64,000 nucleotides of DNA, from positions 1 to 64,000 of the forward strand of contig JAJDUH010000029.1 of the NCBI GenBank assembly GCA_022826805.1, given 5' to 3'. This DNA comes from Candidatus Poribacteria bacterium. GTDB taxonomy: Bacteria; Poribacteria; WGA-4E; WGA-3G. Under the pieces are notes generated by a model. It was not told the DNA's origin. It did not search any database and worked only from the letters and a program-made list of their open reading frames with translations. Below, piece after piece: positions 14,595 to 63,380 of the stretch. Made by a program: the position numbers and the translations under genes. The stretch's first letter is position 1, and each line of letters starts with the position of its first letter.

Positions 14595-14745
14595 GCATCA
14601 ACGCTGAATGCGCGTAAATCATTTTCACTGCGAAGCAAGAATGCGCGTGTGGCATTCAAAATCAGAATCAACGGTATGAATGCCTTATAGGCATTCACCG
14701 GGGTATGAAGTCTGTATGGACTTCACCGAGCATTCAGCGGGTTGT
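14595..14745. repeat. nested hairpin repeat cluster in the arc-dop spacer
   Basis: The outer arms GCTGAATGC (14603-14611) and GCATTCAGC (14730-14738) enclose three further hairpins. These are GAATGC/GCATTC at 14639-14657, GAATGCC/GGCATTC at 14678-14696 and GAAGTC/GACTTC at 14707-14724. The inner units are flanked by ATCAACGGTAT on the left and ACCGGGG or ACCG on the right. The same architecture recurs at 29775, 41626, 47220 and 63302. Confidence 0.85.
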
Positions 14746-18703: not shown

Positions 18704-18794
18704 ATATCTGTTTATAGCAGATTTTAGAACTACTGATACGTTCATTGATGGACGGATGCGCAAGGAAAATATCGTATCCTGAGAATCAAGAATA

Positions 18795-18819
18795 GGCGAG
18801 GTTACAAACCTCGCCTACC
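18795..18819. repeat. GTAG-type palindrome (GGCGAGGTT/AACCTCGCC, CTACC tail)
   Basis: A perfect 9-base palindrome with a 3-base loop followed by CTACC, in the spacer between two convergent genes. It could also act as a bidirectional transcription barrier. Confidence 0.75.
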
Positions 18820-29647: not shown

Positions 29648-29753
29648 TTTTTTCTCCTTTCAAAGTTTTTAGGGTAAAGCCGACAATTGATCGTACATGA
29701 GTGAGGTTAGATGAAGACTAATAAAATATTTCGGTAATTCCACAACCGTATCC

Positions 29754-29911
29754 GGTGCGGTTAGAATGCACATCGCATAAATCAGAATCAACGGTATTCA
29801 TGCCTTATAGGCATGAACCGGGTATGAATGCCTTAATGGCATTCCAAATCAACGGTATTCATGCCGTGTGGCATGAACCGGGAGCGTGTACGCTGCAAAA
29901 CCGCACCTACC
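29754..29911. repeat. GTAG-type palindrome invaded by nested hairpin units
   Basis: The outer arms GGTGCGGTTAGAATGC (29754-29769) and GCAAAACCGCACCTACC (about 29895-29911) form a GTAG-type palindrome. Between them lie hairpin units at 29792-29820, 29826-29844 and 29853-29880, with different stems (CATGCC/GGCATG, GAATGCC/GGCATTC, CATGCC/GGCATG) but the same ATCAACGGTAT and AACCGGG flanks. Confidence 0.85.
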
Positions 29912-32280: not shown

Positions 32281-32369
32281 CTGGTTAGAAACCTCGTCTA
32301 CCGAGAATTGGAGAGAGACCGGCGAGGTTAGAAACCTCGTCTACCAAGAATAGGTGACAAACCTCGCCA
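32281..32369. repeat. three tandem copies of the AACCTCG-CTACC palindrome family
   Basis: Copies at 32281-32302, 32321-32345 and 32352-32369 share GGTTAGAAACCTCGTCTACC or parts of it. Two stems have lost a base pair (CTCGTC against GGCGAG). They sit between two same-strand genes. Confidence 0.7.
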
Positions 32370-32389: not shown

Positions 32390-33568
32390 TTAATCGGTAA
32401 TTGCTTGATAGGTTAGTACGCGGAACTGGGCGTGGAATGGGGAATCGCCGATCAATTGTGTCATCAAAATGCCGATCAACTCTTCCACAGGATCAATCCA
32501 AAACGTGGTGCTTGCGAGACCGCCCCAACTGTACGTGCCTAAGGAGCCGGGACCTTGCGTCTCGGCGACATCAGTGACGACAGCAAATCCAAGTCCGAAA
32601 CCGCACCCTGTTCTCTCAAGGGGTTGCCAATCATCAGAGATATGATTCATCCTGATGAGTTCAACAGTTTTTCTTCCGAGGAGCCGTACACCATCGAGTT
32701 CTCCATCGTTGAGCAACATCTGACAGAAACGGAGATAATCTGCAGCGGTTGATTGTAGTCCTGCGCCACCGGAGTGAAAAAAACTGAGCGGTCCGCTTGA
32801 AACAGGAGCGTTCTCAATTACCTGAATACTCCCGTCTTCTGCGGGTTCATATAAGGTCGCATATCGATCAGCTTTCTCTTCTGGTACCGAGAAAGCGGTA
32901 TCATTCATACCTAAGGGATTAAAGATATGCGTTTTTAAATACTCCTCGAATGGCATACCAGACACAACCTCTACGAGGTAGCCGAGTACATCGGTAGACA
33001 TACCGTAATTCCATGCGGCACCCGGATGGTGGAGAAGTGGAATCTTTCCGAGTTCCTGTGCCATGTATGCGAGGTCTTCACGGTAGTAATTCGCCTCTCT
33101 ATACCGTTGATGAATCGGGTGTTCTCCCTCACCACCATAGATAAGACCGGAGGTGTGTGTAAGCAGATGTTTGACCGTCATCTCATTTTCTACGTCAACA
33201 ATATCGGCACCACCCTCCGTGTAAGCTTGCATGTCTTTGAAAGCGGGGATCAATTCGGAGACGGGTGTGCCGAGTTGAAAATGCCCTTGCTCATAGAGCA
33301 TCATCACAGCGATGCTGGTAATTGGCTTCGTCATCGAGTAAATTCGGAAAATGGTGTCAAAGTCCACCGGTTTGGCGGAGGCAATATCCTGTGTTCCAAA
33401 CTTCTCAAAATGGACGAGCTTGCCCTCACGGGCTATCATCGTCAATGCACACGGGATTTTTCCATTGTCAACCCAGCGTTGCATGACGGGTGCGATGCGC
33501 CCTAAACGCGAGGTAGACATGCCGACATCTTCGGGCACTGCTCGCGGTAATCCTTCATATATTGCCAT
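32390..33568 (-). CDS. serine hydrolase, class C beta-lactamase fold (paralog 1)
   Basis: A 392-residue cytoplasmic beta-lactamase-family (PBP4*/EstB-like) hydrolase. The nucleophile motif SMTK (Ser78-Lys81) lies in FRIYSMTKPITS, and the Tyr motif is in WNYGMSTDVLG. GGAGLQSTAADYLRFCQMLLN is a family block. No signal peptide is present. AGGAG lies 6 bases before the ATG. It is the last of three tandem paralogs (downstream of 33661-34845). It probably acts on esters or peptides; a true beta-lactamase role is unlikely. Confidence 0.9.
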   Translation of the reverse strand: MAIYEGLPRAVPEDVGMSTSRLGRIAPVMQRWVDNGKIPCALTMIAREGKLVHFEKFGTQDIASAKPVDFDTIFRIYSMTKPITSIAVMMLYEQGHFQLGTPVSELIPAFKDMQAYTEGGADIVDVENEMTVKHLLTHTSGLIYGGEGEHPIHQRYREANYYREDLAYMAQELGKIPLLHHPGAAWNYGMSTDVLGYLVEVVSGMPFEEYLKTHIFNPLGMNDTAFSVPEEKADRYATLYEPAEDGSIQVIENAPVSSGPLSFFHSGGAGLQSTAADYLRFCQMLLNDGELDGVRLLGRKTVELIRMNHISDDWQPLERTGCGFGLGFAVVTDVAETQGPGSLGTYSWGGLASTTFWIDPVEELIGILMTQLIGDSPFHAQFRVLTYQAITD

Positions 33569-33660
33569 TAAAATCTCCTATAGGGTAGTTGTCAGTCATC
33601 AGTAGTCGGTTGTCAGTTAAAGAGGTCTTAATGCCCATTACAACCCACTTGTGACAAGTA

Positions 33661-34845
33661 CTAGTCGGTTAGTGCCTGATAAGCCAAAACTCGGAATTGG
33701 GTGTGGAATGGAGAATCGGCACCGACGAGTTGTGTCATGAAAATGCCGATTAAGTCTTCCGCAGGATCAATCCAAAATGTAGTGCTTGCCATCCCCCCCC
33801 AACTGCAAGTACCTACAGAACCGAGGCTGCTCGTGTCAGCAACATTTGTGATAACAGAGAACCCGAGTCCAAAACCTGTCCCTATTCTCTCAGGAGCCAA
33901 CCAATCAGGTGGAACATGGCTCATTCTAATAAGTTCGGTGGTTTTTCTTCCAAGAAGCCGTACGCCATCAAGTTCGCCATCGTTGAGCACCATTTGGCAG
34001 AAACGGAGATAATCTGCAGCGGTTGATTGTAACCCTCCGCCACCAGAGTGGAAAAAACTCAACGGTCCAGTTGCAGCATGGATCTTCTTAATTGCTTGAA
34101 GTTCACCGTTTTCCCCGAACTCATATACCTTTGAATATCGGTCAGCGTTTTCAACGCGCACTGAAAAACCGGTGTCATCCATACCTAAAGGCTCAAAAAT
34201 ACGATTTTTCAAAAACGTCTCAAACGGCATACCCGATACGACTCCTACAAGGTAGCCGAGTATATCGGTAGACATACCGTACTTCCACGCGCTCCCGGGC
34301 TGGTGGATGAGCGGGATACTTCCGAGCTTTTGTATCATGTTTGTGAGGTCACCGCCGTAGAGATCTGCTTCTTCATAACGCTGATCGATTGGATGGCAAT
34401 CCCTATTGCTGTCATAGATAAGCCCAGCGGTATGTGTGAGCAAATGCTTTATTGTTATATCGCGCTCCGCATCAACAATGGCACTGCCATCTTCAGTGTA
34501 GACCTTCATGTCCTTAAAAAATGGAACAAATTCGGAGACAGGTGTACTGAGTTGAAAATGTCCTTCCTCATAGAGCATCATTACAGCGACACTGGTAATC
34601 GGCTTCGTCATTGAGTAGAGGCGGAAGATGGTATCAAATTCTACGGGTTTGGCGGCGACGATATCCTGCATACCAAATTTTTCAAAATGAACGAGTTTGC
34701 CTTCCCGCGCTATCATTGTCAAGGCACACGGGATTTTTCCCGTGTCAATATAGCCCTGCATGACCGGAGCAATACGTCTTAACCGCGAGGTAGACATGCC
34801 GACATCTTCGGGGATCGCTCGCGGTAATCCATGATATGTTGTCAT
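33661..34845 (-). CDS. serine hydrolase, class C beta-lactamase fold (paralog 2)
   Basis: A 394-residue close paralog of the preceding hydrolase, aligned along its whole length (for example LPRA(V/I)PEDVGMSTSRL at the start). The nucleophile motif is SMTK in FRLYSMTKPITS, with WKYGMSTDILG as the Tyr block. The ATG at 34845 has AGGAG 6 bases upstream, in the same CCTATAGGAGA leader as paralog 1, so the duplication included the leader. It has no signal peptide. Paralogs 1 and 2 are more alike than either is to paralog 3. Confidence 0.9.
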   Translation of the reverse strand: MTTYHGLPRAIPEDVGMSTSRLRRIAPVMQGYIDTGKIPCALTMIAREGKLVHFEKFGMQDIVAAKPVEFDTIFRLYSMTKPITSVAVMMLYEEGHFQLSTPVSEFVPFFKDMKVYTEDGSAIVDAERDITIKHLLTHTAGLIYDSNRDCHPIDQRYEEADLYGGDLTNMIQKLGSIPLIHQPGSAWKYGMSTDILGYLVGVVSGMPFETFLKNRIFEPLGMDDTGFSVRVENADRYSKVYEFGENGELQAIKKIHAATGPLSFFHSGGGGLQSTAADYLRFCQMVLNDGELDGVRLLGRKTTELIRMSHVPPDWLAPERIGTGFGLGFSVITNVADTSSLGSVGTCSWGGMASTTFWIDPAEDLIGIFMTQLVGADSPFHTQFRVLAYQALTD

Positions 34846-34857
34846 CAAGGTCTCCTA

Positions 34858-34995
34858 TAGATAGTTGTCAGTAGCCAGTAGTCGGCTGTCAGTAACAAGA
34901 GGTTCTGATAACAATGCACCTCCTGCTGGAATATTCCCAGGTGGGGAAGATTGTTACGGATCGCCTCTTAACTGATAACCGATAACCGACAACTA
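34858..34995. repeat. miniature element with TTGTC... terminal inverted repeats
   Basis: GTTGTCAGTAGCCAGTAGTC at the left and ACTGATAACCGATAACCGAC at the right form imperfect inverted ends with inner TAACAAT/ATTGTTA arms. A similar element is at 62106-62225. Confidence 0.65.
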
Positions 34996-36237
34996 CTATT
35001 CAGTTAGTGCCTGATAGGTTAGTGCTTTAAATTGGTCATGGAAAGGATAAGGGTTATTGTGAATCTGCGTCATGAGCAAGCCGACCACCTCTTCAACAGG
35101 GTCTATCCAGAAGATGGTAGCGGCGGCACCACCCCAACTGAAGCTACCAACGGATTCCGGACTGTCTTTCGATTCTTTATCCTTATCTTCCGATTCTTTA
35201 TCCGTAACAACAGCGAAACCGAGCCCAAACCAATCGTCGTGATGCGGATACCGCATTAATTCAACCGTCTCTTTGCTCAAAATACGAACACCGTCAAGTT
35301 CACCACCGTTGAGCAGCATTTGAGAAAAGCGTATGTAATCTGCAGCGGTTGAGACGAGTCCTCCACCGCCGGAAGGGAAAAAAGTGAATTCGCCGTTTGC
35401 GGTTGCTTTTTTTCCAACGCGTTCGATTCCCTCTTTTTTCGTAAAACTATATAGTGCTGCAAACCTGTCGCGCTTCTTTGGTGGGACCGAAAATGCAGTA
35501 TCTACCATACCGAGGGGACTAAAGAGGCGGGTCTGAAGGAATTCCTCAAATGGCATTCCCGAGATCGCCTGTACGAGATAACCAAGCACATCCGTAGACA
35601 CTCCATAAGTCCATTTTTCTCCTGGCTCATGAACGAGCGGAATGTTGGCGAGTTTTTCGATCATATTGGCGAGTTTTGCACTGGCGGTTAAATCTATTAC
35701 GTTCTCAAAAATTTTCAATTCCTTATAGCGTTCATCGACGGGTTTATCGCCCCAACCGTAAGTGAATCCAGCGGTATGGGTGAGGAGATGCTTGACCGTT
35801 ATCTTTCCCTTGGCATCTGAGATTTCTGTCTGGTCTTCGTTGTAGACTTTCATGTTTTCAAACTCAGGGATGAACTTGGACACGGGTGTATCAAGTTGAA
35901 AATGACCCTCTTCATAAAGCATCATGATGGCGACACTGGTAATCGGTTTTGACATGGAGTAGATACGGAATATTGTATATGGCTCGATCAGTTTCTTATT
36001 TTCGATATCTTGCATCCCGAGGGTTTCAAAGTGGACGATTTTCCCGCGTCTCGCTACAACTGTAAGGAATCCTGGCAGGTTCTCCTGATCAACGTAATTT
36101 TGCATGACAAGACGGATGCGTTCGAGGCGTTCGGCAGAAACACCGACCGCCTCCGGCACCGCCATAGGAAGACCTCGCCCGAATGCGAATGTAGTGGCAC
36201 AGAAAAGCAATAAGCAAACGCAGACCAATTTTTTCAA
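34996..36237 (-). CDS. exported serine hydrolase, class C beta-lactamase fold (paralog 3)
   Basis: A 413-residue third paralog, the first of the three in transcription order. Unlike the others it has a signal peptide (MKKLVCVCLLLFCATTFAFG), so it acts in the periplasm or outside. The nucleophile motif is SMSK (Ser94-Lys97) in FRIYSMSKPITS, with WTYGVSTDVLG as the Tyr block and FPSGGGGLVSTAADYIRFSQ near the C-terminal half. A charged low-complexity insert (KESEDKDKESKDSPES) near 360 is absent from the other two. Confidence 0.9.
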   Translation of the reverse strand: MKKLVCVCLLLFCATTFAFGRGLPMAVPEAVGVSAERLERIRLVMQNYVDQENLPGFLTVVARRGKIVHFETLGMQDIENKKLIEPYTIFRIYSMSKPITSVAIMMLYEEGHFQLDTPVSKFIPEFENMKVYNEDQTEISDAKGKITVKHLLTHTAGFTYGWGDKPVDERYKELKIFENVIDLTASAKLANMIEKLANIPLVHEPGEKWTYGVSTDVLGYLVQAISGMPFEEFLQTRLFSPLGMVDTAFSVPPKKRDRFAALYSFTKKEGIERVGKKATANGEFTFFPSGGGGLVSTAADYIRFSQMLLNGGELDGVRILSKETVELMRYPHHDDWFGLGFAVVTDKESEDKDKESKDSPESVGSFSWGGAAATIFWIDPVEEVVGLLMTQIHNNPYPFHDQFKALTYQALTE

Positions 36238-41555: not shown

Positions 41556-41625
41556 GATAATTTTCCTCCTCCAAACAAAATCGACGCAGAAATATGTTTC
41601 GGGCTTTGATAATGTAAAGCAAAAC

Positions 41626-41780
41626 AAATTTTGCCGCGTAAATCAGAATCAACGGTATGAATGCTATAAAGCATTCACTGGGTATCTATGCCTAAATCAA
41701 CGGTATGAATGCTATAAAGCATTCACCGGGGCATAGACCGGGGTATGAAGTGCTTATGCACTTCACCGGGGGCAAAATTT
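41626..41780. repeat. four-level nested hairpin repeat cluster
   Basis: The outermost arms AAATTTTGCC (41626-41635) and GGCAAAATTT (41771-41780) are perfect complements. Inside lie GAATGC/GCATTC (41659-41676), an interrupted pair CTATGCC (41686-41692) and GGCATAG (41730-41736) which itself encloses GAATGC/GCATTC (41707-41724), and GAAGTGC/GCACTTC (41747-41764). Each unit is preceded by ATCAACGGTAT or GGGTAT and followed by ACCGGGG or ACTGGG. Confidence 0.92.
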
Positions 41781-42261: not shown

Positions 42262-43197
42262 TTATCGTGATTTCCACAAGTAGTTTATGTTGAACTTTAC
42301 GTTCTCATCATCAGAAACAACACCCTCAACTCGCACCTGTAGTTCTAAGAATTCCGGGGAGCTCGTTGGATAGAAAAACTGAATGCCCTGTTCGTCATTG
42401 GCACCAGTGAATTGTGCGAAACCGGCTATATCGTCATCTGTTAACTGCTTTCCATTGAGCGTAACCGTTACACCACTCCCACCAAGTGTTGGTGAATCTC
42501 CAAGGTCTGCGCCCTCTGGATAGTATACCCAGATAAGCCATCCGTGTCCGACCCCTGAATTATCGTCTCCATTATTATTGTTATTCCCATTATTATTCCC
42601 ATTATTATTCCCATTGTTATTCCCATTATTATTTCCGTTGCTTCCATTCCCGTTATTATCGCCAGCTCCTGCATTAGCCGTTGACAAATCATCCCCTGAA
42701 TTATCGTCTCCATTATTATTGTTATTCCCGCTATTATTGTTATTTCCGTTATTATTGTTATTCCCATTATTATTCCCGTTATTATTTCCGTTGCTTCCAT
42801 TCCCGTTATTATCGCCAGCTCCTGCATTAGCCGTTGACAAATCACCATCTGATGGGGCTCCGACTACCTGGATCGTGGTTCTTTCTGCCCGCAAAATAGG
42901 GCTGCCTTCATGATAGAACACATAAATCCGTTCCTCCGGATAGAGGTGAACTTCATGCCCGTTGACGACATATTTGCCGTACCCTTCTCCGGGGATAATA
43001 CTTACACAGGTTGAGTCAGACTCGTCCTGAAAGCAGAGAACCTGCCCATCCGTTGAGACGAGATACCGGTCTACCTCAAGCGTCCTGACTGAACCGATAT
43101 AAGGCATGTCGGTGCAACCGGTGATGCTAAAAAGGATACATAGGAGTCCGGCACTAAATCTCATCATATTTTTTTTCAAGTCCGAAACTTTCCTCAT
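42262..43197 (-). CDS. lipoprotein with Asn/Gly low-complexity repeats
   Basis: A 311-residue lipoprotein with a lipobox ending SITGC (Cys about 27). The N-terminal part (DMPYIGS... VDRYLVSTDGQVLCFQDESDSTCV) is related to the neighbouring lipoprotein. The centre holds two copies of a module, LSTANAGAGDNNGNGSNG followed by NNNG tracts. The last about 90 residues form an ordered beta-type domain (HGWLIWVYYPEGADLG... ISLWVRVEGV-like). It is the downstream member of a pair with 43236-44009, with a spacer of 38 bases. The function is unknown; the tract is probably a flexible linker outside the cell. Confidence 0.8.
   Translation of the reverse strand: MRKVSDLKKNMMRFSAGLLCILFSITGCTDMPYIGSVRTLEVDRYLVSTDGQVLCFQDESDSTCVSIIPGEGYGKYVVNGHEVHLYPEERIYVFYHEGSPILRAERTTIQVVGAPSDGDLSTANAGAGDNNGNGSNGNNNGNNNGNNNNNGNNNNSGNNNNNGDDNSGDDLSTANAGAGDNNGNGSNGNNNGNNNGNNNGNNNGNNNNNGDDNSGVGHGWLIWVYYPEGADLGDSPTLGGSGVTVTLNGKQLTDDDIAGFAQFTGANDEQGIQFFYPTSSPEFLELQVRVEGVVSDDENVKFNINYLWKSR
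42555..42845. repeat. internal tandem duplication within the Asn/Gly-rich gene
   Basis: Two units (about 42555-42692 and 42693-42843) each run from CTGAATTATCGTCTCC through ATT-rich triplet arrays to GCCAGCTCCTGCATTAGC. The arrays differ in length, a sign of slippage. Confidence 0.85.
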
Positions 43198-47178: not shown

Positions 47179-47712
47179 GGAAAAATCGTTTCTTATCGCA
47201 CGAAATACGCCGGACTGACCCCGAGGAATGCCAACAGGCATTCATACTGTTGATTTACCTAAAGGATCGGGATTGTTAAGAAAGTCCCTTCATTTAACTT
47301 GCTTTAGAAGATAACCTCTAAATAAAAGGACTTCAGGGCATCCGAGACAAGCGTTTAAGTTCACAGTAGGGAAACCTTTCACCGTCCATCGCAAAGTGGA
47401 GACACGCAATGAATTGCACTACTACAAACAAAAAAATTATGTATCACCCCCATTATGGTGAATTATAAAAACAAGTAGATATTTCAGTAACCTGTGGTTG
47501 GCGTTTCTAACCCCGATTTTCTTAACAACCTTACCGTCTCCGCTGGCGAGGTTTTTAGCCTTGCCTACTATGGTGAATTATAGAAATATGTTGACGTTTT
47601 AACGAAACATACCTTAAAAACGCAATACCCCGATAGGTGAGGTTTCTAACGTCACCGGTGCAGCATGTAAAAGTAATGCTAAAATCCACCATAAATAGTA
47701 AATTGCTGACAT
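47179..47712. other. repeat-rich intergenic region
   Basis: Contains a hairpin-family unit at 47220-47257 (GAATGCC-AACA-GGCATTC at 47226-47243), a GTAGTAG-type palindrome GCAATGAATTGC at 47404-47425, the GGCGAGGTTTTTAGCCTTGCCTAC unit near 47545-47568 (two halves GGCGAGGTT and AGCCTTGCC) and two copies of TATGGTGAATTATA (about 47455 and 47568). No gene is supported. Confidence 0.55.
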
Positions 47713-55155: not shown

Positions 55156-55218
55156 TTACATTAGATTTTACAATTACCTATACAGTGTAAACCGGCGAAG
55201 TTAGAAACATCGCCTACC
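55156..55218. repeat. composite ~65-bp repeat (AGATTTTACAATTA plus palindrome)
   Basis: TTAGATTTTACAATTACC, then TACAGTGTAAACC and GGCGAAGTT-AG-AAACATCGCC-TACC. It is the counterpart of 50286-50349. The palindrome stem carries one paired change (GAAG/CATC region). Confidence 0.65.
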
Positions 55219-63188: not shown

Positions 63189-63380
63189 TGTTAGCGGTTA
63201 GGGCGTTCGCTACGCTCACTTTTAGCCATTAGCAGTTAGGGCATTCACAGTTAACACAGTGGCTTCGCCACCTTTCAGCGGTCGGTAACTCATAGGTCAG
63301 GGAATGCCACACGGCATTCATACCCCGGTTCATACCCTAAGGCATGAATACCGTTGATTCTGACTCTGATTTTGATTTGC
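63130..63380. repeat. repeat-filled region: TTGTC words, GTTCACT words and a hairpin unit
   Basis: GTTGTCAGTTGTCGGTTATC near 63142-63161, GGACGTTCACTTCGTTCACT near 63170, and a hairpin unit at 63302-63319 (GAATGCC-ACAC-GGCATTC, minus one base) with CATACCCCGGTTCATACC and ATACCGTTGAT flanks up to 63358. The last part is the nested-hairpin family in minus-strand orientation. Confidence 0.75.

Follow-up and report, generated by a model that had tools for sequence, protein, structure and literature searches.

The window, by which we mean the whole 64,000-nt stretch analysed, is contig C1 of a 5.09-Mb Candidatus Poribacteria genome in 80 contigs. It carries three tandem paralogous genes on the reverse strand (32390-36237), apparently beta-lactamase-family serine hydrolases with synteny conserved in the genus, and a gene at 42262-43197 that contains tandem ATTATTATTCCC-type repeats (42540-42850). 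Interspersed along it are AGTTGTCAGTTATCAGTTGTCAG-type repeats (6686, 10892, 19375, 33588, 34864, 55256, 57495 and 63142) and GTAG-type hairpins, GGCGAGGTTACAAACCTCGCCTAC, which form a second interspersed REP family (18794-18818, 32320-32344, 55193-55217 and others).

The window also contains a composite of hairpins set inside one another (41626-41780; Table 1). This nested structure is confirmed: folded as single-stranded DNA, the 155-nt composite reached -41.5 kcal/mol, compared with a mean of -15.3 kcal/mol after shuffling (z = -9.9), and none of 200 shuffles did equally well. Every sequence that the first-pass annotation had named was present, exactly and in its place, as were related units elsewhere in the window, including those on the reverse strand at about 47220-47257 (diverged) and about 63300-63358. 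Its count of four levels of nesting holds only as a history in which tail insertions are counted; physically there are three stems, with the outer AAATTTTGCC enclosing CTATGCC and CTATGCC enclosing GAATGCT.

Written as a formula of its parts, it is T1(AAATCA (unit A) GGTAT-CTATGCCT(unit B)GGGCATAG-ACCG GGGTAT-GAAGTGC..-ACCG), where T1 is a host hairpin and unit B takes the place of GT in CTATGCCT-GT-GGGCATAG, the loop of unit D. It is one tail short of the expectation of a simple model. T1 without an insert (AAATTTTGCCGCGTGTGGGCAAAATTT, at most two mismatches) occurs in 17 copies in the source genome and in 21 of the 37 genus genomes searched, the source included; in G012, the orthologous position (L136) lacks T1 and everything within it. 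The T1 family (AATGTAAAGCAAAGACAAATTTTGCCGCGTGTGGGCAAAATTT; L310-L339 and 41611-41780 of the window) adjoins ATTTGG or ATTTAG, which in reverse complement places it 3' of CAAAT. A further, MITE-like element with ends TGAAGATTAATTTATTAATTCGGTAAT inserts in the loops of units and of other hairpins.

Table 1. Hairpin units, host hairpins and associated elements, with positions in the window unless a locus is named.
Feature	Position	Strand	Basis or remark
Outer arms AAATTTTGCC / GGCAAAATTT	41626-41635 / 41771-41780		
GAATGCT hairpin	41659-41676		
Arms CTATGCCT / GGGCATAG	41686-41693 / 41729-41736		Parted by complete unit 41694-41728
GAAGTGC hairpin	41747-41764		
T1 host hairpin, 5' part (AATGTAAAGC..AAATTTTGCCGCGT)	41611..41639	+	
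AAATCA, tail left over from an earlier-inserted unit	41640..41645	+	Tail-versus-hairpin counts
Unit A, GAATCAACGGTAT-GAATGCTATAAAGCATTC-ACTG	41646..41680	+	Within the tail of unit D
Unit D, 5' half, GGTAT-CTATGCCT	41681..41693	+	
Unit B, AAATCAACGGTAT-GAATGCTATAAAGCATTC-ACCG, complete	41694..41728	+	In the loop of unit D
Unit D, 3' half, GGGCATAG-ACCG	41729..41740	+	
Unit C, GGGTAT-GAAGTGCTTATGCACTTC-ACCG	41741..41768	+	
T1 host hairpin, 3' part (GGGGCAAAATTT)	41769..41780	+	
Tandem pair of units, with GAATGCC and GAAGTC stems	14659..14728	+	Alignment to G052 (L281/L363)
Older outer arms GCTGAATGC / GCATTCAGC around the 14659 insertion	14603..14738	+	
Three units (TTCATGCC, GAATGCC and TTCATGCC stems) in hairpin T2	29779..29880	+	
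T2 hairpin (GGTGCGGTT..AACCGCACC)	29754-29907		Empty T2 CATCGCAT-TT-GG at L214
Single diverged unit, AAATCAACAGTAT-GAATGCCTGTTGGCATTC-CTCG	~47215..47257 (approximate)	-	
Two tandem units, GAATCAACGGTAT-TCATGCC..-ACCGGGGTAT-GAATGCC..-CCTG	~63300..63360 (approximate)	-	
MITE-like TGAAGATTAATTTATTAATTCGGTAAT element	L043:1802-1960; L053:5714; L070; L142; remnant near 29713-29740		

The unit and its stem repertoire

The repeated unit is about 35 nt long and has the form (A/G)AATCAACGGTAT-(7-bp stem, ~4-nt loop)-(A/C)CCG. We parsed units from approximately 0.7 Mb of source-genome stretches, counting overlaps, and from 0.9 Mb in relatives. The genome carries 219 copies of the tail ATCAACGGTAT, compared with none of a control pattern read backwards; extended by one base, the tail has 212 copies in the source genome, is present in 34 of 40 genomes searched and ranges from 1 to 127 copies in other members of the genus. 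At 33101, the ATCAACGGTAT motif falls within coding sequence, is not accompanied by a hairpin and appears to be fortuitous. The unit is found across Candidatus Poribacteria, and the relatives sharing an 18-mer are Candidatus Poribacteria MAGs; matches to the 18-mer in Methylococcales, 'bacterium U-2019' and Proteobacteria MAGs were discounted as being at chance level for 257 Gb. A viral-labelled contig (IMGVR_UViG_2744054414_000001, L250) has the 18-mer AATCAGAATCAACGGTAT. Among 324 tails, 274 lie outside open frames of at least 100 aa and 50 inside, which means either that the element is not confined to intergenic DNA or that the frames in question are spurious.

No single stem is fixed, and the first-pass annotation had likewise seen stems of different sequence. 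The 207 perfect 7-bp stems between GGTAT and MCYG comprise 12 arm sequences and no others: GAATGCC, GAAGCCC, AAAGCCT, GAAGTCC, TCATGCC, GAAGTGC, CTATGCC, GAATGCT, GAAGCCT, AATGCCC, CAAGTCC and GAACCCT. Stem positions show several Watson-Crick pair types, and the Watson-Crick fraction among distinct sequences is 0.598, compared with 0.358 in controls with shuffled 3' letters. The stems covary, yet they form a closed set of subfamilies common to species of the genus. Stem covariation, commonly taken as a sign of functional RNA, can mark mobile DNA.

Insertion sites and array growth

Host hairpins are often themselves repeated, so filled and empty forms coexist in the genome. Under the stricter array definition, 78 of the 103 arrays for which an empty form exists had lost exactly 2 nt, and in the other count 77 of 113 had done so; as many arrays are paralogous within one class (CCCCCTAAA^TC^CCCC), these represent some 20-30 independent insertion events rather than 78. 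Exact 2-nt loss is modal in 22 of 28 target classes, and larger near-identical paralogues with flanks 95-96% identical show the same two-base difference. About a quarter of the filled/empty pairs have a gap of 3-4 nt, in part because loop lengths vary. A permuted-flank control gave gap-2 matches in 12 of 44 cases, as flanks of the same class recombine with each other. For about 60 arrays, no empty counterpart was found in the DNA compared, and all-against-all synteny gaps were too noisy to yield general rules.

Across 30 distinct contexts, the first and second lost bases are pyrimidines in 23 and 27, respectively, and the two bases that follow the lost pair are G or C in 25 and 27. The rule that emerges from filled and empty sites is that the insert takes the place of a dinucleotide, usually YY with SS after it, in another hairpin or next to one. 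Target sites (bases lost upon insertion between hyphens) include T1 GCCGCGT-GT-GGGC, T2 CGCAT-TT-GGGCGAG, CTAAA-TC-CCCCTTATCAGGGGG and TAAC-CC-CCCTTATC; GTAG-type hairpins at GGAAA-TC-CCTCCTAC and AGCTCG-CT-CCTAC; the REPs that flank RAYT genes, at CCCCG-CT-GGGGC; and the unit's own copies, at GCCT-GT-GGGC, AATCA-AC-GGTAT and ATTCC-CC-GGAG. Hairpins of the CCCCC..GGGGG type are also targeted. Units sit in loops, and also at stem ends, at feet and in the element's own tail. The earlier suggestion that any short palindrome can serve was right in that palindromes are targeted, but too broad in view of the YY-SS tendency and these additional sites. Zero-loss insertion with shared bases was rejected for the units, because the lost dinucleotides vary and mismatch the ends of the insert. 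T1 seems to follow a separate rule in which no bases are lost, as expected for an IS200/IS605-like insertion.

The flanks of composites pair with each other at -8 kcal/mol or below in 51% of cases in the source genome and 56% in relatives, compared with 24% and 26% for permuted flanks. We used this duplex-energy test in place of a strict test of short-stem complementarity (15% versus 4% at 6 bp or more), which was weak, many host hairpins being imperfect or offset.

Orthologous sites that are empty or differently filled in sister species confirm insertion. Where the window has 70 nt of insert (14658-14728), G052, the closest relative found, has CG instead, with flanks 94% identical over 402 bp; the older outer arms around this insertion are mostly there in G052, without the insert. 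At approximately 30.9 kb of C10, G052 has a plain hairpin, GCGAGGTT-AGA-AACCTCGC, and the source genome (G000) has T2 in its loop and a unit inside T2. A hairpin GGCGAGG-CACGGAGA-CCTCGCC, found as such in G021, G015 and G014, holds two units in its loop in the source genome (C8, ~212.8 kb), T2 and a unit in G012, and a T1-like element in G052. The array at approximately 132 kb of C3 is common to G052, where more units are present. The proposal of the first-pass annotation that the unit inserts into other hairpins is thereby supported, empty counterparts having been found both as paralogues and as sister-species orthologues.

Tandem arrays, repeated GAATCA tails and nesting can all be traced to re-insertion of the element into its own tail, loop or foot. 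Insertion into the tail, AATCA^AC^GGTAT, leaves a spare GAATCA and creates the junction MCCG+GGTAT, which accounts for 88 of 140 tandem junctions, more than any other; most others carry one extra G. Insertion at the 3' foot gives hairpin-A-GAATCAACGG junctions, and insertion into the loop gives visible nesting. In 62% of 206 arrays there are as many tails as tandem hairpins, compared with a mean of 43% and a maximum of 55% after permutation. Adjacent tails within 150 bp have the same orientation in 119 cases and opposite orientations in none.

Mobilization and competing explanations

At the level of sequence, these comparisons show that the unit is mobile, with defined ends, a modal two-base replacement, a target preference, a constant orientation and stem subfamilies. 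As to how it moves, we infer as our best guess that the substrates are single-stranded and folded and that a HUH (RAYT-like) enzyme acts in trans. We lean, with slightly better than even confidence, towards a REP-like non-autonomous mobile hairpin that spreads into hairpin DNA with replacement of a dinucleotide, the HUH enzyme being supplied in trans. Transposition would occur on single-stranded DNA, such as the template of the lagging strand, with element and target both folded into hairpins, and a RAYT/TnpA-REP-like HUH transposase acting on single strands would cut the target on either side of the dinucleotide and join the hairpin there. Stem complementarity would be kept because the folded hairpin is the thing recognized, with the stem sequence drifting through compensating changes and founding new subfamilies, and nesting would be a by-product, since the element can equally target its own hairpin and flanks.

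Y1 transposase genes are present in 37 of 38 genus genomes, including all unit-rich ones. Scanning 5 loci of the source genome and 29 from relatives, we found no Y1 locus with units as its cognate repeat; among these 34, only L273 has units nearby, inside the loop of a RAYT-REP. RAYT genes of the genus (L271, L273, L275, L277, L278 and L101-L103) are flanked by multi-stem REPs, whose self-complementary stems are GCACTCC, TTGCTCC, TCACGCC, CACCCC, GCCCC and GCCCT and several of which have a TATGTNTATA-like tail, so a multi-stem repertoire is not unique to the unit. A flanking RAYT was dismissed as the obvious mobilizer, the repeats of the RAYT genes themselves being different hairpins. No transposase class stands out as recurrent beside units, where the largest neighbour clusters resemble common household families; one TnpB-like family appears in 4 frames near units, and in two of them the unit sits at the apparent end of that element.

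The same element and 2-nt replacement could instead be driven by another, unnamed non-HUH activity, either a double-strand cut whose 2-nt overhangs are trimmed before ligation or NHEJ, or a recombinase of the DDE/serine type. HUH transposition as known from IS200/IS605 leaves all target bases in place, so a HUH route needs an extra step for the 2-nt loss, whereas a 2-nt staggered cut with trimming would produce a constant loss more easily. The results of the Y1 scan, in which no gene was physically linked to units as its own repeat, and of the neighbour analysis, in which no transposase class stood out, fit this alternative as well. However, the preference for hairpin targets and the strand-constant orientation point to single-stranded substrates, and neither target duplication nor terminal inverted repeats outside the hairpin are present; we consider a non-HUH activity unlikely, albeit a serious contender. 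A broader proposal, which we put forward tentatively and with rather less than even confidence, is that folded DNA of about 35 nt replacing a hairpin dinucleotide constitutes a distinct class of bacterial hairpin transposition, the enzyme of which may be new. If so, other hairpins and the element itself would be natural targets, and the genome would hold a readable nested history.

Routes without a transposase fare worse. Forks stalled at hairpins could copy another hairpin, close by or far away, by polymerase template switching and return, with no dedicated enzyme, which would suit the hairpin targets, some junction loss and the local growth of arrays; constant insert ends, a mostly exact 2-nt loss over many unrelated targets, the lack of inverted neighbours and hundreds of dispersed genome-wide sites make this improbable. 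R2-like target-primed reverse transcription also loses about 2 bp of target, and the GAATCA repeats could be a variable tail like that of non-LTR elements. However, own-tail re-insertion accounts for the number of tails, and we found no RVT_1 (PF00078) match in five unit-rich genomes (G000, G012, G016, G022 and G023), with no candidate at all in G012 and with G022 being a single contig, 96% complete; an RNA-mediated route is thus made highly unlikely. Similarly little weight can be given to the idea that the unit is immobile and is a terminator or a structured regulatory RNA whose stem changes are compensatory. Strong folding and a location mostly outside long open frames would agree with it, but clean empty orthologous sites, insertions within other repeat families and tail copies ranging from 1 to 212 within one genus would not. 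No Rfam family matched the unit (in the window, only rRNA and tRNA families matched), and units were not seen in a consistent place and orientation upstream of a given gene in different species. Least credible of all is the model of the first-pass annotation, in which each insertion copies or extends the palindrome that the element enters. Different stems do occur in different hosts, nearly all of them self-complementary, but the repertoire of 12 recurs genus-wide, independently of target, and among 15 units lying in the loop of another unit, only 6 contain the outer stem, about as expected from the commonness of GAATGCC. Moreover, a single site can hold different stems in different species (L033/L356/L357). 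At the tRNA-adjacent site of C17, plain GTAG-type hairpins in G022 are empty, the source genome has a CTATGCC unit and G012 has GAAGTGC and GAATGCC units.

Comparison with known systems

By the criteria tested, the unit is not a REP/RAYT element, a REPIN or a MITE, and it works most like a REP. With REP/RAYT systems (PMC3733652, PMC8266576), it shares a 20-40 nt hairpin or palindrome in more than 100 copies, a varying stem with a fixed short flank, a mainly extragenic location outside long open frames and a presumed HUH mobilization. Unlike these, its ends, (A/G)AATCAACGGTAT and (A/C)CCG in nearly all parsed arrays, are neither GTAG nor CGTC, it has no linked RAYT gene flanked by it as cognate repeat, it replaces 2 nt of target and it nests in itself. 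The inverted pairs of REPINs and BIMEs were not found among adjacent tails. Rather than showing the target-site duplication of MITEs, empty sites are about 2 nt longer than the joined flanks, and in place of the fixed tetranucleotide, without loss, of IS200/IS605-derived (PATE-like) ends, its targets share only the YY-SS tendency. The reverse transcriptase expected of non-LTR (R2-like) elements is lacking in the five element-bearing genomes searched.

Insertion of one palindrome into another has precedents, and the earlier statement that no described family behaves in this way was partly wrong. REP stems vary by complementary changes, and some families lie within palindromes, namely A. variabilis GTAG-15, T. 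roseum GTAG-23 and H. neapolitanus CGTC-1; the available text of that source describes one target palindrome per family and gives no filled/empty rule (PMC3733652). The unit, by contrast, enters many unrelated hairpins, including itself, with a 2-nt loss. IS1397, IS621, ISPpu9/10 and ISRm22 insert in REP palindromes, some at the axis of palindromy, but they encode a transposase and several leave direct repeats of 2 or 6 bp (PMC1525189), whereas the unit is non-coding and bases are lost. The short palindromic repeats of Volvox carteri organelles are inserted within one another; they reside in organelle DNA and have mostly TAAA/TTTA loops, and the accessible part of the report describes no insertion rule (PMC2670323). 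Yeast mitochondrial GC clusters are likewise mobile hairpins that merge into larger ones, but their AG or ACT direct repeats indicate a putative target duplication of 2-3 nt, the opposite of a deletion (PMC4478555). In the open-access literature searched, we found neither a two-base replacement rule nor self-nesting bacterial REP-like units, and no publication dealing with REPs in Poribacteria.

TnpA-REP acts on single-stranded REPs, which it cuts at CT or CA, and the mechanisms of REP dissemination have been called poorly understood (PMC8266576). In the present system, filled, empty and half-built states coexist within one genome and between sister species, making the insertion chemistry directly testable, and defined ends, a defined target loss, a target preference and a constant orientation turn the arrays into a nested, time-ordered record of events.
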